From: a virus
DNA: 27,350 bases
Reading direction: 5' to 3' (one strand)
IMG/VR virus record: IMGVR_UViG_3300020418_000036
Location: 1-27,350 of that record
The stretch's first letter is position 1. The number at the start of each line of letters is the position of its first letter. Below are positions 6,055 through 15,124 of this stretch, one piece after another. Under the pieces are notes generated by a model, which ran no database searches, was not told the DNA's origin, and saw only the letters and a program-made list of their open reading frames with translations. Made by a program: the position numbers and the translations under genes.

Positions 6055-6129
6055 CATAAATTTGTTAAGCCTATTACAGACGCACGCCCAAGGACGCAAC
6101 CCCCAGGGCGGTCCGCCGTTTTTGCCTGT

Positions 6130-6150
6130 AGCTAGTCTCTTAGACTGGCT
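6130..6150. repeat. 9-bp hairpin in junction region
   Basis: AGCTAGTCT / AGACTGGCT pair over 9 bp (one U-G wobble) around a 3-nt CTT loop. A T-run follows about 30 nt later at 6181. It could be a terminator or an end-recognition element. Confidence 0.4.
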
Positions 6151-6384
6151 CACAACAAGGCTATAACTGCGTTTTGAGCGTTTTTTATATTATTAATTGG
6201 CTTTTTTGTTGTTGTTTTTGTTGTATTGGTTGCCGTTGCCTGGTTGTTTATCCTTTTACATTCTCTTAATATTGCTTTGTTGTTTAGTGGGTATCTGTGG
6301 GCGTTTAATATTTGTTGCTACTTTGTACGGTTACCCGCCCTTTATATATTTGCTTTATTTTGTAAGTACTGGCAATATAAATAT

Positions 6385-6408
6385 TAAGTACTCGTTAAGA
6401 GTTACTTA
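6385..6408. repeat. Hairpin upstream of first early gene
   Basis: TAAGTA-CTC pairs with GAG-T-TACTTA (one bulged T) around a GTTAA loop. It lies 28 nt upstream of the first small early gene and could be an operator or a transcript-leader hairpin. Confidence 0.35.
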
Positions 6409-6436
6409 TTAACTGTCATTCATTCACCCTTTAATT

Positions 6437-6658
6437 ATGGCTACTCAAACAGACACTAACAAAGTTATACAGGTTTACATAGAAAACCACTATGGAACAC
6501 CTTACAACTATGTAAAAGACGAGGCCCAGGCCGAGGCACTCGAAGCACTAACAAAAAAGAAAACACTAGACCGTTACGACTTCAGAGCACTTGAAAAACT
6601 TGGCTATACTATCGAATTAGTCATGTCACCTAATTTGAGTTTAAATACTATTAAATAG
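6437..6658 (+). CDS. Small early protein of unknown function
   Basis: A 73-residue protein from ATG 6437, the first gene after the junction. Residues 8-30 (KVIQVYIENHYGTPYNYVKD) may form a small alpha/beta fold; the middle is helical and charged (AEALEALTKKK). The C-terminus ends NLSLNTIK. Short genes at the left end of T7-like genomes usually act on host functions early in infection. No family is recognised. The next start lies 2 nt after its stop. Confidence 0.65.
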   Translation: MATQTDTNKVIQVYIENHYGTPYNYVKDEAQAEALEALTKKKTLDRYDFRALEKLGYTIELVMSPNLSLNTIK

Positions 6659-6660
6659 GC

Positions 6661-6849
6661 ATGATCAGTAAATTTAATGTATTACGTGAATATGTAGTAA
6701 CTTATACGACCTGGGGAACTAGGGACGATATAAAGACATACAACGTTAAGGCAGTTAATGAGATTAACGCCTTAATGATGTTTCACAATAAACGTATTTC
6801 TTTAAAATCACACATTACGGGGGTCACACAATGTCCAGTAACAAACTAA
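6661..6849 (+). CDS. Small early protein of unknown function
   Basis: A 62-residue protein from ATG 6661. The sequence YVVTYTTWGTRDDIKTYNVK followed by AVNEINALMMFHNK suggests a small beta-beta-alpha fold, as in proteins that read 'tyr-x-val ... ala-x-asp-x-x-ala'. It overlaps the next gene by 19 nt. No function is assigned. Confidence 0.55.
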   Translation: MISKFNVLREYVVTYTTWGTRDDIKTYNVKAVNEINALMMFHNKRISLKSHITGVTQCPVTN

Positions 6850-7082
6850 CAACGGCCCGTTATTTACTTAAACAAGTACAAACAAAACGGTTAAGTTTGT
6901 TAAGTCTAGCTAATTATCATTACTTAACTAGTGATCAACTAGCTGAAATTAAAATGTGTGAAAGGGCGGCTAGTGAGCTAGACAACTTTCTAGACCAGGA
7001 ACCGCCCGAACTTCCAAATATTGCCAAGTTTAAAAAACCAAAAACAGAGGCAAGATTTAAAATTAACTTTAAACCCCACTAA
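6831..7082 (+). CDS. Small early protein of unknown function
   Basis: An 83-residue protein from ATG 6831. The first 55 residues are helical and basic/amphipathic (LTTARYLLKQVQTKRLSLLS, then QLAEIKMCERAASELDNFL). An acidic Pro-rich linker (DQEPPELPN) and a Lys/Phe-rich tail follow. The helical part plus basic tail would suit protein or nucleic-acid binding. No family is recognised. Confidence 0.55.
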   Translation: MSSNKLTTARYLLKQVQTKRLSLLSLANYHYLTSDQLAEIKMCERAASELDNFLDQEPPELPNIAKFKKPKTEARFKINFKPH

Positions 7083-7088
7083 AAACAA

Positions 7089-7370
7089 ATGACCACCAAA
7101 AAACCCGCACTTGTCAAAACTGACATAGTCCACAGTAACCCAGAGTTAGACGCTCAAAAGGCTTTATACAAAAAATACGGTCAGGCAAGATGGGATATCA
7201 TTAAATTAATTAAAGATATCGCACCGCTCACAACCGTTGACAACTACTTAGAAGACACAATTGTTCATCTATGTTATCAAGTTGTTGAAAAAGATAAACC
7301 TTTTCAAGATACAATAGAGCGTTTACAAAAGTTAGAGCCGTGTACATGTGATGAACACGATGACGACTAA
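7089..7370 (+). CDS. Small early protein of unknown function
   Basis: A 93-residue protein from ATG 7089, six nt after the previous stop. It is probably all-helical (ALYKKYGQARWDIIKLIKDI, later DTIVHLCYQVVEKDK) and ends in a very acidic tail with two Cys (EPCTCDEHDDD). The acidic tail could mimic DNA or bind metal, but this is speculation. A candidate attachment site lies directly downstream. Confidence 0.55.
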   Translation: MTTKKPALVKTDIVHSNPELDAQKALYKKYGQARWDIIKLIKDIAPLTTVDNYLEDTIVHLCYQVVEKDKPFQDTIERLQKLEPCTCDEHDDD

Positions 7371-7389
7371 CAACAAGTAAAAAAGTAAG

Positions 7390-7422
7390 GCTTTATGGGC
7401 GGTTCGATTCCGCCCTTTACAA
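7390..7422 (+). other. attP: tRNA T-arm-like sequence, candidate attP core
   Basis: Positions 7398-7414 form a canonical tRNA T-arm: GGCGG, loop TTCGATT, CCGCC, followed by seven acceptor-like bases and an A at 7422. No complete tRNA surrounds it: there is no matching 5' acceptor strand and no anticodon or D arm. A 3' tRNA fragment in a phage with a tyrosine integrase is typical of an attP core that recreates the host tRNA on integration. The integrase is about 2 kb downstream. The hairpin could instead be a plain terminator (6-bp stem plus CTTTA). Matching to a host tRNA gene would decide. Confidence 0.45.
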
Positions 7423-7425
7423 TTG

Positions 7426-7442
7426 CCGCTCACTGCGAGCGG
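7426..7442. repeat. GC-rich hairpin next to candidate attP
   Basis: CCGCTC / GAGCGG perfect 6-bp stem with a 5-nt loop (ACTGC), 4 nt after the T-arm-like site and 14 nt before the next gene. It may be an integrase arm site, terminator or operator. Confidence 0.4.
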
Positions 7443-7455
7443 TTCAACTTAAAAA

Positions 7456-8127
7456 ATGGTATTAGTTCACATCACCAAAAAGTCTAATAATAGGAAAGTC
7501 GGACCAATACCGACTACAACAACAGAGGCGGCATCTTGCCCGCCGTCTTGTCCTTTTATTAATAACGGTTGCTACGCTAAAAGCGGCCCGCTTTCTTTAC
7601 ACTGGAAGAAAGTAAGCAACGGCACACAATCAAATACAACTAATTGGGCGGGTTTATGTTCATTTATTGAGCAACAACCACCTAACCAGTTAATACGGTT
7701 AAACCAGGCGGGGGACTTACCGCACATAAACGGCGTTATTGATACCTTTTTATTAAGGCAATTAGTAAAAGCTAATAAGGGCCGTAAGTCTTACACATAC
7801 AGCCACCATAAACACACGCCCCATAATATAAAGGCATTACAACAAGCCAATAAATTAGGACTCACAATAAATGTGAGCACTGAATCATTAGAGGCCGCCG
7901 ATTATGTTGTTGACTCTTATGGCTTACCCGCTGTAACTGTGGTTAATTCAAAAGATAAACCACCAAAAACAACACCAGGCGGGCGGCGTGTGGTTGTATG
8001 CCCCGCACAAATAAAAGATGGCGTAACGTGTAGCACTTGCAAGTTATGCAGTAAACAACGCAAGTTTATAGTTGCATTCATAGCACACGGCACACAAAAG
8101 AAAAAAGTTGACGAGGTTTTATTATGA
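7456..8127 (+). CDS. Cysteine-rich DUF7227/GP88-like phage protein
   Basis: A 223-residue protein from ATG 7456. The N-terminal part has KVGPIPTTTTEAASCPPSC followed by PFINNGCYAKSGPLSLHW, a Cys cluster with a Gly-Pro-Leu turn. The middle carries IRLNQAGDLPHING and YTYSHHKHT, and the C-terminal part RRVVVCPAQIKDG then TCSTCKLCSKQ, ending with FIAHGTQ. This arrangement of an N-terminal CPxxCP...CYA and a C-terminal CP...CxxCxLC matches, from memory, a family in phages and plasmids annotated only as a domain of unknown function. The clustered cysteines suggest metal or Fe-S binding. It is richer in GGCGG-type words than late genes, which may point to a different origin. Confidence 0.7.
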   Translation: MVLVHITKKSNNRKVGPIPTTTTEAASCPPSCPFINNGCYAKSGPLSLHWKKVSNGTQSNTTNWAGLCSFIEQQPPNQLIRLNQAGDLPHINGVIDTFLLRQLVKANKGRKSYTYSHHKHTPHNIKALQQANKLGLTINVSTESLEAADYVVDSYGLPAVTVVNSKDKPPKTTPGGRRVVVCPAQIKDGVTCSTCKLCSKQRKFIVAFIAHGTQKKKVDEVLL

Positions 8128-8142
8128 CCTCGTTTATTTTTT
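8110..8142 (+). terminator. Intrinsic terminator overlapping a stop codon
   Basis: A perfect 7-bp stem ACGAGGT (8111-8117) / ACCTCGT (8127-8133) with a 9-nt loop, followed by TTATTTTTTTT. The stem includes the last codons and TGA of the upstream gene, so coding and termination share sequence. This is a convincing intrinsic terminator closing the first early operon. Confidence 0.8.
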
Positions 8143-8204
8143 TTGTATGCTTAACAATCATTTTATATATTTTTTTAAAAAACACCCTAAGATAAAAAAG
8201 TACT

Positions 8205-8408
8205 ATGAACACTTACCAAAAGCAAAAGAGCAACTACTCAATAAGACGGGCATTAATTCAACAATTAGTAAACGTTAAAGTAGCCGAGAATGACCAACAA
8301 AGAGCCGAGGCTCACAAACTGGTTAAAAGTCTCAAAATGCAATTAAAAGCATATGAGATTAAATATTGCTATTACCAGGCCAACTTAATTACTGGGGACC
8401 TGGGGTAA
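8205..8408 (+). CDS. Small early protein of unknown function
   Basis: A 67-residue, probably all-helical basic protein from ATG 8205: SIRRALIQQLVNVKVAEND then QQRAEAHKLVKSLKMQLKAY. The heptad-like spacing would allow a short coiled coil. It lies alone between the terminator at 8110-8142 and the palindromic repeat region. No family is recognised. Confidence 0.55.
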   Translation: MNTYQKQKSNYSIRRALIQQLVNVKVAENDQQRAEAHKLVKSLKMQLKAYEIKYCYYQANLITGDLG

Positions 8409-8423
8409 ATTTTTTTAGTCAAA

Positions 8424-8491
8424 AGTAGTACAAATGTATTATAGTACAGATGTTCATTAGTTCAAATGTACTATAGTATGTATGTACTACT
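8424..8491. repeat. Palindromic operator-like repeat cluster
   Basis: Two near-identical 16-mers, CAAATGTATTATAGTA (8431-8446) and CAAATGTACTATAGTA (8463-8478), are spaced 32 nt start to start. The second holds the perfect palindrome TACTATAGTA. The cluster is bracketed by inverted 9-mers AGTAGTACA (8424-8432) and TGTACTACT (8483-8491), and a T-run follows. Paired palindromes about three helical turns apart look like operators for a dimeric regulator or a large hairpin leader. No repressor gene is identified. Confidence 0.55.
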
Positions 8492-8522
8492 CTTTTTTAG
8501 TATATTTTTTTAATAAAAATGG

Positions 8523-8591
8523 CAAGGACGCAAGGACGTAGGGCAAGGACGTAGGGCAAGGACGCAAGACAATGTGAACTAGGCAAGGACG
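8523..8591 (+). repeat. CAAGGACG short repeat array
   Basis: Five copies of CAAGGACG start at 8523, 8531, 8544, 8557 and 8584. The middle copies are joined by TAGGG, giving a 13-nt period. One more copy stands at 6089, on the other side of the first early operon. In T7, short repeats (CCTAAAG arrays) lie beside the terminal repeats at both ends. This array may be an analogous left-end element or a protein-binding or origin iteron. The rest of 8409-8694 holds no gene. Confidence 0.6.
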
Positions 8592-8694
8592 CACTGCATA
8601 TTACAACCACGCATACCTATAACAAAACAAACCCACCCTGACAATACCTGACTGTCACAAAACCCTACAGGTTTTCACAATACAACTGCTGCAA

Positions 8695-8862
8695 ATGCAA
8701 ACTTATCAGGTTATGTATGGAGTCACTGGTGATTCTCGTTGGCGTTTCTTTGATGCTATCGATGATGAAGAGGCTGCATGGAAGGCTAACTGCTGGACTA
8801 AGTCCAAAGGTTTTGAGCTGATTGATGTTAAACAAATACGAGATATAGATCATGAAACGTGA
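8695..8862 (+). CDS. Small early protein of unknown function
   Basis: A 55-residue protein from ATG 8695: MQTYQVMYGVTGDSRWRFFD then an acidic, Trp-containing helix (DDEEAAWKANCWTKSKG) and FELIDVKQIRDIDHET. The pattern of a beta strand, an Ala/Trp helix and a second strand is common in tiny phage proteins. Its end overlaps the next gene by 11 nt, supporting coding and coupled translation. Confidence 0.6.
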   Translation: MQTYQVMYGVTGDSRWRFFDAIDDEEAAWKANCWTKSKGFELIDVKQIRDIDHET

Positions 8863-9184
8863 ACCACGTAAACGTAAAAAATACTTTCCTAATAATGTAA
8901 GAGCCTTACAAGATACACCTGACGCATACTTTATGTCTATTCCATATGAGGATTTAATCAGCTGGAAGATACACGGGTATGAGATACCTGACTCTGTGTA
9001 CTGTGTATTTAGAACTCGTAACATGCAAACAGGAAAGGTTGAAGAACACTACTACAACACCGAGCATCACGCAAAGAAGCGATTGAAAAGGAGCATTGAA
9101 AGCGGCTTGGAAATAACAATGGTATCAAACGATGGTTTATATCACCTTAGACCTTCAGATACTTTTATTGATTGGAACTTTTAA
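8852..9184 (+). CDS. Small basic protein of unknown function
   Basis: A 110-residue protein from ATG 8852. It begins MKREPRKRKKYFPNN, strongly basic, followed by a mixed region with IPYEDLISWKIHGYEIPD and YCVFRTRNMQTGKVEEHYYN, then a KKRLKRSIESG helix. The C-terminal part (YHLRPSDTFIDW) is beta-like. A DNA-binding early regulator is possible from charge and position upstream of integrase. No motif confirms it. Confidence 0.55.
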   Translation: MKREPRKRKKYFPNNVRALQDTPDAYFMSIPYEDLISWKIHGYEIPDSVYCVFRTRNMQTGKVEEHYYNTEHHAKKRLKRSIESGLEITMVSNDGLYHLRPSDTFIDWNF

Positions 9185-9186
9185 TA

Positions 9187-9327
9187 ATGAATAGTCAAAC
9201 AACAAAAAGAAGACTTGGTGCACTGCTCACCAGTATAACTACTCATCCACATAAACGTGAGTTGATTAAATTAATGAGACAACAGGTAGCTGATGATACA
9301 TATAAGGTCAGCAGTCTAGACCGATAG
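9187..9327 (+). CDS. Small basic protein of unknown function
   Basis: A 46-residue protein from ATG 9187, two nt after the previous stop: MNSQTTKRRLGALLTSITTH then a Lys/Arg-containing helix (KRELIKLMRQQVADD). It fits the gap before the integrase promoter region. Coding is supported by spacing and composition only. Confidence 0.5.
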   Translation: MNSQTTKRRLGALLTSITTHPHKRELIKLMRQQVADDTYKVSSLDR

Positions 9328-9338
9328 CAAAAATAGTG

Positions 9339-9363
9339 TATAATATGGGTAACTACCACCCAT
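9339..9363 (+). promoter_or_regulatory. Candidate promoter and operator before integrase
   Basis: A perfect -10 hexamer TATAAT at 9339-9344 lies 24 nt before the integrase start. No good -35 is seen (TCTAGA, poorly matching). Directly after it, ATGGGT (9345-9350) and ACCCAT (9358-9363) form a 6-bp inverted repeat with a 7-nt spacer across the expected transcription start, a natural repressor site. There is no Shine-Dalgarno before ATG 9368, so the message may be near leaderless. Confidence 0.55.
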
Positions 9364-9367
9364 TATT

Positions 9368-10252
9368 ATGACCACCTTTTTTAAAACCTGGGGCGAAGCA
9401 GTAGAGTACGACCTATTGCGTAACAAAAGCCACGGCAAGGACAGAGCCAGCCATGATGACGTTGTGCATCATCTTGATTACTTCACCGCATGTTATGGAA
9501 AGTCATTTCCTTGTATGGAAATCACACAGGATGTGATAGATGACATGCAGACACAGGTAATGGAAGAGAGAAATGTAGTTAATGCTACAGCTAACAGATA
9601 CATGGCTTCTGTTAAGGCAGTATTAAACTTTGCATACGCAAAAAGAAAGCTGCCACATTCCTTTAAATTCCTTAAGTTAAAAGAAAATAAAGGTAGACCT
9701 AATTGGTACGACAAAAGTACTATTGATGCATATGAACAGGTAGCACGAAGCCTTAACTTTTGCCGAGATGACCTTGCAGACATCGCTGTCTTTGGTGCAT
9801 ATGTAGGTGCAAGACAGGCAGAGATACTTAATCTTAGATCAATAGATATAGACCTCGATGCCTACGATGGCAGAGGCAGTATTTATATAGGAGGCCGCCC
9901 AGGGTTTTCTACAAAGAATGATGACTGGCGAGAGGTGCCAATGCATACAAAAGTGCGTCCAATAATCTTAAAAAGGATTAACAAAACACACCCGAATACT
10001 TTGATATTCGGACATGACTGGGCGAATAAAGATAAATTATTGCGTGAATTTAAAAAGGTGTTAGTTTATTTGGAACAGCCGCCAGTAATGAACTTTCACC
10101 ATTTACGCCACTCTTTTGGTGTATGGCATGCCGAAGCTGGAACACCAATAAGAACCCTCATGGAACTTATGGGTCACAAAACAATAGAAACTACCATCAT
10201 GTATGCGAAAGTTTCTAACAAAGCCAGGGCAGATGCAATGGCAAACATCTAA
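9368..10252 (+). CDS. int: Tyrosine-family site-specific integrase
   Basis: A 294-residue phage integrase. The N-terminal half (to about 110) is the SAM-like core-binding domain. The catalytic domain shows the family residues in order: Arg149 in VGARQAEIL, a probable Lys183, His244-x-Leu-Arg247 in FHHLRHSFGVWH, His270 in LMGHKTIETT and the nucleophile Tyr279 in TIMYAK. All are intact, so the enzyme should be active. It sits directly upstream of the phage RNA polymerase, as in other cyanopodoviruses with integrase. Together with the T-arm-like site at 7390-7422 it suggests tRNA-directed integration. The start at ATG 9368 follows the candidate promoter at 9339-9363. Confidence 0.95.
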   Translation: MTTFFKTWGEAVEYDLLRNKSHGKDRASHDDVVHHLDYFTACYGKSFPCMEITQDVIDDMQTQVMEERNVVNATANRYMASVKAVLNFAYAKRKLPHSFKFLKLKENKGRPNWYDKSTIDAYEQVARSLNFCRDDLADIAVFGAYVGARQAEILNLRSIDIDLDAYDGRGSIYIGGRPGFSTKNDDWREVPMHTKVRPIILKRINKTHPNTLIFGHDWANKDKLLREFKKVLVYLEQPPVMNFHHLRHSFGVWHAEAGTPIRTLMELMGHKTIETTIMYAKVSNKARADAMANI

Positions 10253-10273
10253 TCAACAATTGAAAGCATTACT

Positions 10274-12613
10274 ATGGCTACACCCTCACAAATTGATGAG
10301 CAAGTAAAGTTAGAAAGAGAACAAATTAGAAAAGGTATAGATATATTGCGTGACAACACGCAGAATCTAGAAAGCAAGTCATATTCTTCTGCAACTATAT
10401 ACGGCGTAACATCTATAAGAGATCTACTACCGTTAGTAATTGAACAGATAGAAACACGCAAAGACATGCTAAAACGAGGCCACAACGGAGTAGCCTTCAA
10501 GGACGTATATAAATATTTAGACTCTGTTGATACCAATGTGCTTGCATCCATAACCTGTAAGGTTGTCATGGATAAAGTGTTTAGCACTCGTGATAAGAGT
10601 AATTACTTAACTAATATATCTTCCGCAGTTGGCACAGCTGTAGAGGATGAGTGCCACATCACATATTACGAGAAGACTGTGCCTGGATTATTAGACTATA
10701 TCCAGAAAAATTATTGGCACAAGGCATGTGGTACACATCAAAAGGTTGTTGTCTTGCGTACATTGATGAACAGGTACAACGTAGAAACCTGGAAGAGATG
10801 GAATTCAGCTGTGCGTGTAAGGTTAGGTGCATGGCTTATTGACTGCGTCCTTAACTCATGTAACTGGTTTGAAAAGAAACGTGTACACATGAGAGGAACA
10901 AAATGTCCTAACGCAATAGTACCAACTGAAGCATACCTATCTATTAAAGATAAATTAATGGAAGATGCTGAGTTGTTTGCACCTCTATCATATCCAATGT
11001 TAATAGAACCAAACGACTGGACTAACGAAAGAAAAGGTGGATATCTTCTTAATGAAGTTATGAAGGGACATCAGTTGGTACGACAGGGAGAGGTCGGAAT
11101 AGTACAGGGAGAACTGCCACTTCGTTTCTTAAATAAGATACAGAAGGTTGGCTACAAAATAAATCCCTTTGTTTATGCTATAGCAGACGAGCTACAGCAG
11201 AGAGGTATAGCAGTAGGAAAGTTTATTCCTATTGTTGAAATACCATCGACACCACTTCCAAATAACATGGAAGATCCAAATGTTAAAAAGGATTATTGCA
11301 GAAAAGAAGCAGAAGTTCACAATAAACGTGCACTTGTTTACAAAGCTAGTTGTAGAACTAGAAAACAAATGGAAGCTGCAAGTATATTTAAAGACAGAGA
11401 TCGTTTCTTTTTACCTTGGAACTTTGACTGGCGTGGTAGATGCTACCCAATACCAGCTTATTTGACACCGCAATGTACTGACTTTGGTAAATCATTGTTA
11501 GTTTTTGCAGATGCAGTTGATTTAACACCTGATTCTGAGTCATGGATAGAGTTTCAAGTTGCAACAACATATGGATTAGATAAGGCAACTATGCCTGAAC
11601 GCCTTGCATGGGCAAGAAACAATCATGCATTGATAAGAAGAATTGTTGAAGATCCAATAGCTAACTTGCATGAGTGGGAAGGCGTTGAAGAACCTTGGCA
11701 ATTTGTGGCTGCATGTGAAGAAATGTACCATTGCCTTATCAAAAGAGATCGTAAGACTACAAGTCTAATGATTGCAATAGATGCTACGGCATCAGGTATA
11801 CAAATATTGTCTGGTTTAGCAAGAGATAAATCAGCAGCTATGTTATGTAATGTATTACCTTCAGATAAACCTGTTGATGCATACAAGATAGTAGCTGAGA
11901 AGTCTAAACCATACATACCTATAGTTTTACATCCGCATTGGGATAGAAAATGCACCAAGAGAACGGTCATGACTATACCTTACAATGCTAAACCTTTTAG
12001 TAATAGAACATATATAAGAGATGCTCTAAAAGAAAAAGGCGTAGACATAACTAAAGAAGATTTAACACAAACAGTACAGGCTGTACGCAATGCTATGGAA
12101 GTAGTTGTACCAGGTCCTATGGCTGTTATGCGTTGGATTGAAAAAGAGGTTGCAAAGACTATAAAGCGTGGTGTAGACAAGATTTTATGGGTTACACCAT
12201 CAGGTTTCGTTGTATCACAGAGATACATGAAAAAAGAAGTAGTTGAAATAAAGATGAAGTTATTAGGACGTTGTGAGATTAGAGTTGCTACTGACGATAC
12301 AAATGAAGTTGACCTACTAGGGCACAAGAATGGGACAGCTCCTAATTTAATACATTCACTTGACGCAAATACTTTACATTTTACTGTTGACAAGTTCGAC
12401 AAACCTATAGCTCTCATACATGACAGTGTCTTGTGCAGAGCTACAGATATGACAGAACTTTCGACAAAGGTGAGAGAAGTCTACATGCATTTATTTGCAG
12501 AGCATGACTATCTCAACGACTTTGCCAAAGCAATTGAAGCAGAGTCTGAACCACCTATCATCGGGGACTTAGTACCCTCAGACGTAATTAATTCCACTTA
12601 TTTTTTTTGTTAA
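10274..12613 (+). CDS. Single-subunit (T7-type) DNA-directed RNA polymerase
   Basis: A 779-residue polymerase, about 100 residues shorter than T7 RNAP (883). Catalytic motifs are present: motif A IAIDATASGIQILSG (Asp503, T7 Asp537), motif B KRTVMTIPYNAKPFSNR (Lys562 and Tyr570, T7 Lys631 and Tyr639) and motif C LIHDSVLC (Asp717, T7 Asp812). FFLPWNFDWRGRCYP upstream of motif A is another family signature. It should transcribe the middle and late genes from phage promoters; I could not derive a promoter consensus in this window. Its stop overlaps the SSB start (TAATG). Confidence 0.97.
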   Translation: MATPSQIDEQVKLEREQIRKGIDILRDNTQNLESKSYSSATIYGVTSIRDLLPLVIEQIETRKDMLKRGHNGVAFKDVYKYLDSVDTNVLASITCKVVMDKVFSTRDKSNYLTNISSAVGTAVEDECHITYYEKTVPGLLDYIQKNYWHKACGTHQKVVVLRTLMNRYNVETWKRWNSAVRVRLGAWLIDCVLNSCNWFEKKRVHMRGTKCPNAIVPTEAYLSIKDKLMEDAELFAPLSYPMLIEPNDWTNERKGGYLLNEVMKGHQLVRQGEVGIVQGELPLRFLNKIQKVGYKINPFVYAIADELQQRGIAVGKFIPIVEIPSTPLPNNMEDPNVKKDYCRKEAEVHNKRALVYKASCRTRKQMEAASIFKDRDRFFLPWNFDWRGRCYPIPAYLTPQCTDFGKSLLVFADAVDLTPDSESWIEFQVATTYGLDKATMPERLAWARNNHALIRRIVEDPIANLHEWEGVEEPWQFVAACEEMYHCLIKRDRKTTSLMIAIDATASGIQILSGLARDKSAAMLCNVLPSDKPVDAYKIVAEKSKPYIPIVLHPHWDRKCTKRTVMTIPYNAKPFSNRTYIRDALKEKGVDITKEDLTQTVQAVRNAMEVVVPGPMAVMRWIEKEVAKTIKRGVDKILWVTPSGFVVSQRYMKKEVVEIKMKLLGRCEIRVATDDTNEVDLLGHKNGTAPNLIHSLDANTLHFTVDKFDKPIALIHDSVLCRATDMTELSTKVREVYMHLFAEHDYLNDFAKAIEAESEPPIIGDLVPSDVINSTYFFC

Positions 12614-13206
12614 TGGCTAGAACCATCCACTTGACACCTGAACCAGTAGTACTAACTGGTTTCCAGGCTATATTAAAACCAAGCAAATTTGGTTACTCAC
12701 TTAAAGCACTAGTTGGTGAGGATATTATTTCAAAACTAGAAACAGAAAGGGAGGACTGTCTCAAATGGGCACAGTCTAAACTTAAGAATCCTAAAAGATC
12801 TACTCTTAAACCAGAACCCTGGGAAGAAGTAGAAGACGGTAAGTATACCGTTAAGTTTTCATGGGCAGATGAAAAGAAACCACCTGTTGTAGATACAGAG
12901 GGCACACCTATTAAGAATTTAGATACACCAGTTTACGAAGGATCTAAAGTTAAGTTAGGTTTTCATCAGAAGCCATACGTATTAAAAGATGGCGTTACAT
13001 ACGGCACAAGTTTAAAACTTAGTGGAATACAAATAGTTAGTGTACAAACAGGAGCTGGTGTAGACACAGGTGACCTTGATGAGGTTGGTGTTGCAGAACT
13101 CTTTGGTAAAACAAAAGGTTTTAAAACTGATGAACCAAACGTTACACCTGACTTAGCACCTAGCTCAGTAGAAATCGACATTGATCAATATCAAGACGAC
13201 TTCTAA
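12613..13206 (+). CDS. Single-stranded DNA-binding protein (T7 gp2.5-like)
   Basis: A 197-residue protein starting at ATG 12613, overlapping the RNA polymerase TAA; a TTG six nt upstream is not needed. It has a beta-rich OB-fold-like body (e.g. VVLTGFQAILKP, KYTVKFSW, TYGTSLKLSGIQIVSV) and the acidic, aromatic C-terminal tail EIDIDQYQDDF. That tail is the hallmark of gp2.5-type SSBs, where it contacts the polymerase and helicase. Position between RNA polymerase and endonuclease I is that of T7 gene 2.5. Identification rests on tail, fold pattern and synteny. Confidence 0.85.
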   Translation: MARTIHLTPEPVVLTGFQAILKPSKFGYSLKALVGEDIISKLETEREDCLKWAQSKLKNPKRSTLKPEPWEEVEDGKYTVKFSWADEKKPPVVDTEGTPIKNLDTPVYEGSKVKLGFHQKPYVLKDGVTYGTSLKLSGIQIVSVQTGAGVDTGDLDEVGVAELFGKTKGFKTDEPNVTPDLAPSSVEIDIDQYQDDF

Positions 13207-13556
13207 TGTTTAAATCAGGATTAGAGGAAAAAGTCTCTGATCTTTTATGTGAGTTAGGTGTTGACTACGAGTATGAAGGTTTAAGTTTACCTTATACAAT
13301 CAAACACTTATATACACCTGACTTTGTTTTGCCTAACGGCATCGTGTTAGAAACAAAAGGATATTGGAAACCAGAGGACAGACGAAAGATAAGACAAGTT
13401 GTCACTGAAAACCCACACATAGATTTACGAATGGTATTTCAAGATCCTTATAAAAAGATTAGTAAGAAATCCAAAACAACATATGCGAAATGGTGCACAC
13501 GATACAACATTAAGTGGTGTGCATACCACGCAATACCAGTGGATTGGCTGACATGA
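13206..13556 (+). CDS. Endonuclease I, Holliday-junction resolvase (T7 gp3-like)
   Basis: A 116-residue nuclease that resolves branched DNA and helps degrade host DNA. It aligns well with T7 gp3: SGLEEKV (Glu7, T7 Glu20), YTPDFVLPNGIVLETKG (Asp39, Glu49 and Lys51, T7 Asp55, Glu65 and Lys67), and FQDPYKK followed by IPVDWL near the end. It is shorter than T7 gp3 because it lacks the N-terminal extension and the basic C-terminal tail. The start overlaps the SSB TAA and the stop overlaps the primase-helicase ATG. Confidence 0.95.
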   Translation: MFKSGLEEKVSDLLCELGVDYEYEGLSLPYTIKHLYTPDFVLPNGIVLETKGYWKPEDRRKIRQVVTENPHIDLRMVFQDPYKKISKKSKTTYAKWCTRYNIKWCAYHAIPVDWLT

Positions 13557-15124
13557 CTGAAAGCGAATTCATTAGACACGAACCATGTCCAGACTGTGGC
13601 TCATCTGACGCACTAGCTGTGTATACAGATGGCCATACATTCTGTTTCAGTTGTCAAACTAGGACAGCTGCTAACAAACAAGAAAACAAATTATCCATGC
13701 AAACAAATGTCAACTTCAAAGGTACCGCTCAACGACTCAATAAAAGAAGAATCAGCGAACAGACGTGCGAAAAGTACAAAATCTACAGAGATGAGACATA
13801 CTTACGCTTCCCTTATTTCGATGGCTCTGGACGTATTAAAGGATTCAAAACAAAAACCAAACTAAAATCATTTAAGTATGAAGGACATACTACTGACACT
13901 TTATTTGGTCAGCATTTGTTTCCTAATTCTGGCAAACGTATTGTTATATTCGAGGGTGAGCTAGATGCAGCCTCTGGATACGAGGCAATGAATGGTTGGC
14001 CAATGGTGTCTTTGCCGCATGGTGCAGCAAGTGCAAAAAAAGATGTACAAAAACAAATACCCTTTTTACAGGGATATCAAGAGATTGTTTTATTTTTTGA
14101 TAAAGACGATCAGGGACGCAAGGCGACAGAGCAAGTGGCAGCTGTCTTACCGCAAGGGACAGTTAAGATTGCTCACCTGGAAGATCCGTACAAGGATGCC
14201 AGTGATGCTTTACAGGATAATAATCCAGACGCTATACGCCGTGCGATATGGGATGCGAAACCTTATAGGCCAGATGGAATCGTTGATGGTAAATCTTTAC
14301 TGAATGCAGTAACGACACCAAGTCAACCATGTAATCATGAGTATCCATTTGCTGGTTTACAGGCAATGACCCACGGTATAAGATATGGCGAACTTACAAC
14401 TATTACGGCTGGCACAGGCCAAGGCAAGAGCAGCCTATGTAGAATGCTCGCAACTGAGCTTCTTAACAAAGGAGAGAAAGTAGGCTACATCGCATTAGAA
14501 GAATCTAACAGGCGAACAGCACTTGGACTTATGTCAGTGGCTGTAGGAAAAGCTTTACATTTAGGTGAACATGAATATTCTACTTTGAAAGATGCTTACG
14601 ATAAAACTATCTTGGGTTGGAACCTTTATTTATACGACCATTTTGGCAGTCTATCTGCGGATATTATTTACAACCGTATTGAATATATGGCTCTTGGCCT
14701 GGATATAAAAGTAGTTTTCCTCGACCATCTTAGTATATTGCTGAGTGGATTAGACGGAAATATGGATGAAAGACGCACCATAGACAAGACTATGACTGAC
14801 TTACGTAGTCTTGTTGAGCGTACAGGAATTAAATTATTCTTAGTGTCTCATCTTAGAAGAGCACAAGGAGACAAAGCAGTTGAAGATGGTCAGCGTGTTT
14901 CTATTGGCATGTTACGAGGGTCAGCCAGCATAAGTCAATTATCTGACACAGTCTTAGCACTGGAAAGAGATCAGCAAAACCCAGATGATTGCTCTACATT
15001 ACGTGTGTTGAAAAACAGATACAGTGGAGAGACTGGGGTGGCAGCTGAACTGAAATATGATAAAACTACCTGTAGATTCAATGAAACTAAGAACACAGTT
15101 TTCAATCCCAGCACAGACTTCTGA
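13553..15124 (+). CDS. Primase-helicase (T7 gp4-like)
   Basis: A 523-residue bifunctional replication protein; ATG 13553 overlaps the upstream TGA, so the GTG at 13514 is not needed. The N-terminal zinc finger has Cys12, Cys15, Cys31 and Cys34, the same spacing as T7 gp4. The TOPRIM primase core follows with IFEGELDAASGYEA and LFFDKDDQGRKA. The helicase domain has Walker A GTGQGKSS (Lys292) and Walker B VVFLDHLSILLSG. An in-frame ATG at codon 49 could give a finger-less helicase form as in T7 (gp4B), though no ribosome site is obvious there. Confidence 0.97.
   Translation: MTESEFIRHEPCPDCGSSDALAVYTDGHTFCFSCQTRTAANKQENKLSMQTNVNFKGTAQRLNKRRISEQTCEKYKIYRDETYLRFPYFDGSGRIKGFKTKTKLKSFKYEGHTTDTLFGQHLFPNSGKRIVIFEGELDAASGYEAMNGWPMVSLPHGAASAKKDVQKQIPFLQGYQEIVLFFDKDDQGRKATEQVAAVLPQGTVKIAHLEDPYKDASDALQDNNPDAIRRAIWDAKPYRPDGIVDGKSLLNAVTTPSQPCNHEYPFAGLQAMTHGIRYGELTTITAGTGQGKSSLCRMLATELLNKGEKVGYIALEESNRRTALGLMSVAVGKALHLGEHEYSTLKDAYDKTILGWNLYLYDHFGSLSADIIYNRIEYMALGLDIKVVFLDHLSILLSGLDGNMDERRTIDKTMTDLRSLVERTGIKLFLVSHLRRAQGDKAVEDGQRVSIGMLRGSASISQLSDTVLALERDQQNPDDCSTLRVLKNRYSGETGVAAELKYDKTTCRFNETKNTVFNPSTDF

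Follow-up and report, generated by a model that had tools for sequence, protein, structure and literature searches.

An octamer array at a conserved position in T7-like cyanophages is the densest cluster of a sense-strand word of the early genes

The RegB endoribonuclease of phage T4 has its sites at GGAG in early mRNAs, lambda-type nut sites are sense-strand signals of phage early units, Chi is an oriented genome word, and the SRL and SRR elements of T7 are short repeats adjoining the terminal repeats. The binding motif of CsrA/RsmA is CANGGANG (PMC4894983). The cyanophage octamer described below, CANGGACG, shares features with all of these. Like the RegB sites, it is a short GGA word that would single out early phage messages, and the early-gene, sense-strand enrichment by which RegB-type signals are judged is found for it as well; unlike them, it is longer, contains a free base, lies mostly within genes and forms a dense array in a leader. 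With the nut sites it has in common the placement on the sense strand of early units, but it occurs about once per kilobase within genes and has no boxB-like hairpin. It resembles Chi in being a strand-specific, over-represented short word in which one base may be free, but it is restricted to the early zone, and the left end would gain no protection from its orientation.

The window, by which we mean the whole 27,350-nt stretch analyzed, is a linear IMG/VR contig, the DNA and proteins of which match the cyanopodoviruses P-SSP2, P-SSP7, and their relatives. In it, terminase and orf5794 are followed by the predicted terminal repeat, small genes, and DUF7227, then by the array, and then by orf8852, integrase, and RNA polymerase (RNAP). 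The array (8523..8591) is flanked on its 5′ side by the DUF7227 gene (7456..8127; PF23872, E 4e-78) and, immediately adjacent, a T-rich tract (8493..8515), and on its 3′ side by a small ORF of 55 aa (8695..8862, length by eye), orf8852 (8852..9184; a conserved cyanopodovirus early protein, phrog_9569), a tyrosine integrase gene (9368..10252), and the gene for a T7-like RNAP (10274..12613), all on the plus strand. As the first-pass annotation had described, the octamer CAAGGACG occurs here five times within 69 nt (at 8523, 8531, 8544, 8557, and 8584), with a 13-nt period for the copies at 8531, 8544, and 8557, and a sixth copy is present at 6089–6096. To its list we add a seventh exact copy at 10498–10505, within the RNAP gene, and the variant CAGGGACG at 14111–14118, within the primase/helicase gene, which is the last copy of the word. 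Every copy in the window is on the plus strand, and all 8 copies of CANGGACG fall in the early zone, which extends from the predicted terminal repeat to the end of the primase gene (6060..15124). The 7 exact copies compare with 0.39 expected, and at least 7 were found in none of 100 dinucleotide shuffles; more than one copy per 70 bp was found in none of 300 shuffles, against five in the window. A reading of the array as coding sequence was discarded, with stops seen by eye in the frames through it, and an Rfam scan returned no family above the gathering score at the array.

Searched with the array as the only query, IMG/VR yielded 67 loci, 28 of which match cyanopodovirus proteins; these include a record carrying the array of P-SSP2 and the L121, L122, and L131 contigs. 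In all 28, the array lies 3′ of the upstream genes and 5′ of orf8852/RNAP, and in the 19 with DUF7227 the distance from that gene to the array is 93–583 nt. The array is located 2.2–3.0 kb 3′ of orf5794, the gene adjoining the terminal repeat, in 12/12 loci holding both, and about 2.2 kb inward of the predicted terminal repeat in the window. Among the remaining 39 loci are high-GC phages, in which the word occurs within genes or as plain octamer runs, and a few low-GC loci that match no protein. Copy number and form vary. The near relative L121 has an identical set of five copies; L122, whose integrase is 99% identical, carries three; and in L131, whose integrase identity is 67%, five copies lie at the same place. 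In P-SSP7 the copies, at 2489 and 2516, are spaced, P-SSP2 and P-SSP3 have CATGGACG runs, all four third bases are mixed in the array of P-GSP1, and NATL1A-7 has a tandem pair. In most relatives, a T-rich or terminator-like stretch precedes the array. The first-pass annotation had named two observations that would speak against an element of this kind, namely, absence of an array from close relatives and a random spread of the octamer; neither was made, since arrays recur at one place and the word is bound to a zone. As a separate observation, L200, L182, L231, L183, L229, and L237 carry another tandem word, CACAATAA or CACAATCAT, immediately 5′ of the CANGGACG array.

The repeat unit is CANGGACG, with a free third base. 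Of the units in 12 arrays that were located by synteny, 24 match it exactly, 19 depart from it at base 3 alone, and 8 have a change at any of the remaining 7 positions; all four bases are seen at position 3, even within a single array. The fair evidence for the free base comes solely from these 12 arrays, because 26 of the 36 arrays in the set used for spacings and flanks were found with a pattern leaving base 3 free. In this partly pattern-selected set, the base following the word is C or T in 153/168 copies, and the commonest spacing is eight bases (45 of the 114 spacings of up to 60 nt).

The array is the densest cluster of a word that is much more widely distributed over the early genes. 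In P-SSP7, P-SSP2, and P-GSP1 together, the DNA up to the connector gene contains 33 sense and 0 antisense copies, and the remainder, which is twice as long, contains 1 and 0. Our survey covered 22 genomes in addition to the window, with 14 word-bearing genomes (13 and the window); P-SSP3 also bears the word and was dropped from the sums as a near-copy of P-SSP2. Across the 14 genomes, 142 early sense copies were counted versus 11.4 expected under a second-order Markov model, whereas early antisense copies numbered 2 versus 5.3 expected; the depletion among late sense copies is weak (6 versus 9.3). The density of isolated copies is 0.68 per kb 5′ of the RNAP gene, 0.65 within it, 0.39 from there up to the end of the primase gene, and 0.01 beyond, with all copies in late genes amounting to 0.016 per kb. 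The zone ends at the primase gene: the 80.9 kb between primase and connector contain a single isolated copy, and the 383.9 kb of late DNA contain 6 copies, versus 91 isolated copies in the preceding 150.3 kb. When the arrays were masked in 13 genomes, 88 early sense copies remained, with 1 antisense and 7 in the other 447 kb, and the word ranked first of 15,857 patterns on the early sense strand. It also ranked first in S-CBP3 and S-TIP37 alone, which are without a tandem array and played no part in defining the word.

The distribution is not uniform across the survey. Late reverse-strand copies number 0–1 in most genomes and 5 in S-TIP37 and Syn5. Enrichment was absent from P-SSP10, P-SSP6, R27W, NATL2A-133, SS120-1, Syn5, S-SRP01, S-CBP42, and S-CBP2, and was weak in S-TIP28 (6 versus 1.9 expected); 8 of the 22 surveyed genomes show none or weak enrichment. 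S-CBP1, which belongs to the RNAP-chosen set described below, is hardly enriched, with 1 of 3 copies in the zone. Among genomes without CANGGACG, no other early-only word was as strong; the best, CCACNAGA in the early region of S-CBP42 (9 early sense copies, 0 elsewhere, 0 antisense), is maybe another word of this type. A set of nine more records, chosen by RNAP similarity and not by the word, has 42 of 53 sense copies between −5.5 and +5 kb of the RNAP start, which is 23% of the sequence, and 1 of 7 antisense copies in the same zone, the limits of which were modeled on the earlier zone profile and fixed after the positions were visible.

Within genes, the word is under selection at the nucleotide level. 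Where the amino acids permit it in the commonest frame, it is used at 62/165 early sites versus 2/478 elsewhere, and the synonymous bias has the same direction in 13/13 genomes (2–9 early, 0–1 in the rest). In four genomes, isolated copies are found 18 times in frame 2, 5 times in frame 1, 4 times in frame 0, and 5 times between genes, so that frame 2 takes 18 of the 27 coding copies. Sorting the 88 isolated sites by the similarity of their flanks gives 61 groups, and some sites are therefore shared by descent.

Strand, zone, synonymous selection, and the leader array argue for a signal that is read alongside early transcription. Tentatively, and at only a little under an even chance, we favor the reading that CANGGACG serves the early block as a sequence-specific signal on the sense strand, the block running, in this one large cyanopodovirus group, from the terminal repeat via RNAP to primase, and that the word is read at the RNA level, on early mRNAs. 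A putative RNA-binding protein or sequence-specific RNase would recognize the word and thereby tell early messages from late ones, with a possible effect on decay, translation, or elongation, and the array would offer it closely packed docking sites in the untranslated leader of a second early unit (orf8852, integrase, and RNAP). A broader version, a phage-wide tag of early transcripts for which T7-like cyanophages would write the octamer with its free base by synonymous codons, letting a putative factor single out the early messages, again with a docking array in one leader, is possible but somewhat less probable. Across 88 word sites, predicted unpairedness was no higher than at 162 matched GGA controls (p 0.70), and the fold of the array was not unusual (z −0.70). 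Base pairing of GGACG with CGTCC was considered and rejected: the sole CGTCC of the window is 1.4 kb away, and 6/22 loci have none within 1.5 kb.

Two candidates for the reader were set aside. The orf8852 family is present in 13/13 word-bearing genomes and, per query, in 1/7 lacking the word (S-SRP01 or NATL2A-133), S-TIP28 being in neither set; other families, and even out-of-frame ORFs, have an equal or cleaner profile, and the pattern thus follows kinship. A structural model of the orf8852 protein (mean pLDDT 71) had no match among solved structures at E 0.001. No MarR protein was detected among nine scanned early proteins of the window, though P-SSP7 encodes a MarR-type regulator; the accessible part of the paper on that regulator shows no motif. 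We found no account of the word or the repeat in the open literature (5.39 million papers, searched with GCAAGGACG and tandem forms; the best 12 of 207 hits are unrelated by title), nor, in the literature searched, of the way in which early and late expression are told apart in T7-like cyanophages. The word offers a concrete handle on this question, as it predicts a factor that a short bait of RNA or DNA could catch, and it provides a marker for the early zones of uncultured phage contigs. It may surprise specialists, because the signal lies mostly within genes.

The main rival, which we regard as rather unlikely, is an oriented DNA-level site, at which a phage or host factor bound to duplex CANGGACG would help the host RNA polymerase to run through (by antitermination, pausing, or transcription-driven DNA entry) or would mark the first-entering part of the genome; the DNA would be read by a transcription factor. 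Since the genes are all on one strand, orientation itself does not separate RNA from DNA reading. Such a site accords with the strict strand preference, with confinement to the first-entering and presumably host-transcribed part, and with the placement of the array after T-rich or terminator-like stretches in most relatives. The eight-base steps, however, are tight for proteins sitting side by side on duplex DNA, and P-SSM2 and P-SSM4 have only 3 and 4 copies, respectively, so the host polymerase has no general need of the word.

Replication iterons, which the first-pass annotation had also offered, are improbable. Here, the array and its AT-rich tract would bind an initiator, or the word would mark the points at which primase starts for a fork moving leftward. 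The array considered by itself agrees with this proposal, consisting of direct repeats next to a T-rich tract at one conserved place, and the zone ends sharply at the primase gene; the scattered sense-strand copies, picked at synonymous sites, and the codon bias are left unexplained. GTC is the triplet of the T7 primase, which prefers G or T before it, and the complement of the word contains GTC. The preceding base here is C, however, and to the right of the zone there is no enrichment on the opposite strand.

The other element proposed at first pass, for packaging or concatemer processing in the manner of the T7 end repeats, is very unlikely, and the copy at 6089–6096 bears directly on it. 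The terminal repeat of P-SSP7 is 206 bp (PMC3350473), and positions ~6070–6290 of the window align with it by eye; because this stretch matches the left end of the P-SSP7 repeat, the copy is located ~18 nt inside the predicted direct terminal repeat. Its assignment to a junction region was right in that sense, and the window itself shows no genome end. The exact octamer is present at this site in the window, L162, and L131, and absent from it in L122, L163–L165, L170, L171, P-SSP7, P-SSP2, P-GSP1, NATL1A-7, L198, and L177, and the copy does not belong to any conserved end element. Like SRL and SRR, the array consists of short direct repeats in noncoding DNA in the left part of a T7-like genome; unlike them, it is 2.2–3.0 kb inside and is unpaired at the right end, near which P-SSP7 has no copies, and the word runs on, sense-only, through the early genes to primase. 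Independently, a perfect AGTACATTTGTACT palindrome was observed within the predicted terminal repeat of L122 (2371–2384) and L164 (5440–5453).

Also very unlikely is a sponge for CsrA/RsmA or a CsrA-controlled leader, for which the word is the published high-affinity motif letter by letter, including the free third base, with several GGA sites in series. CsrA scored above the cut-off in none of 22 phage records, with one weak 17-bit match in the L131 contig, whereas E. coli, B. subtilis, and T. maritima were positive in the control run and S. elongatus, also a control, was not. For the hosts, its absence is taken from a statement in the cited part of a paper that cyanobacteria are without CsrA or have a CsrA that does not bind RNA. 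Furthermore, position 7 is mostly fixed as C in the phage word, and GGA was not found to be presented in hairpin loops.

A Shine–Dalgarno-like or start-codon sequence (AAGGA, ATGGAC), suggested by the second copy of the NATL1A-7 pair, which begins 12 nt 5′ of an ATG, is very unlikely as a general rule, as the distance to the next start ranges from 8 to hundreds of nt without fixed spacing and the free third base spoils the AAGGA. Neutral slippage of an octanucleotide repeat may set the copy number of the array, which varies among near relatives (five in L121, three in L122), and comparable octamer runs are found at 76 loci of unrelated genomes, with no cyanobacterium among the titles, but as the whole explanation it is hardly credible, leaving the isolated copies, the codon choice, and the fixed place unexplained.

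Several other signals were observed near the array. Just 5′ of it, the window has a row of four LexA-box-like 14-mers spaced by exactly 16 bp (8427, 8443, 8459, and 8475; 8427..8488, plus strand; consensus from PMC3091678), and similar clusters occur in L122 (5059–5147), L121 (2421–2482), and L179 (7591–7635). One of the sequences, AGTACAAATGTATT, is one base off the MED4 lexA operator, GGTACAAATGTATT (PMC3091678). Four such sites within 50 bp (up to 2 mismatches) were found in none of 300 shuffles, and single sites with 2 mismatches occur at chance frequency. The cluster suggests that host LexA, and hence the SOS response, may control the integrase and RNAP unit in this clade.

Hairpins resembling a tRNA T-arm (a stem with a TTCRANT loop, in about ten different pairing stems) were seen 5′ of early genes in the window (7397–7415), L131, L179, L195, and L237, as well as in P-SSP7 (L133), 91 nt past the array start and further upstream, and in P-SSP2 (L134), near 8599 and 8815. 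They often lie within a short acceptor-like stem, with a second hairpin between them and the ATG; neither ARAGORN nor Rfam reports a tRNA at these sites, which are possibly tRNA-like processing signals. Finally, just past the integrase gene of L131 (6992–7009, minus strand), there is an 18-nt match to the 3′ end of a tmRNA (Rfam E 0.018, under the gathering score), which is perhaps an attachment site.
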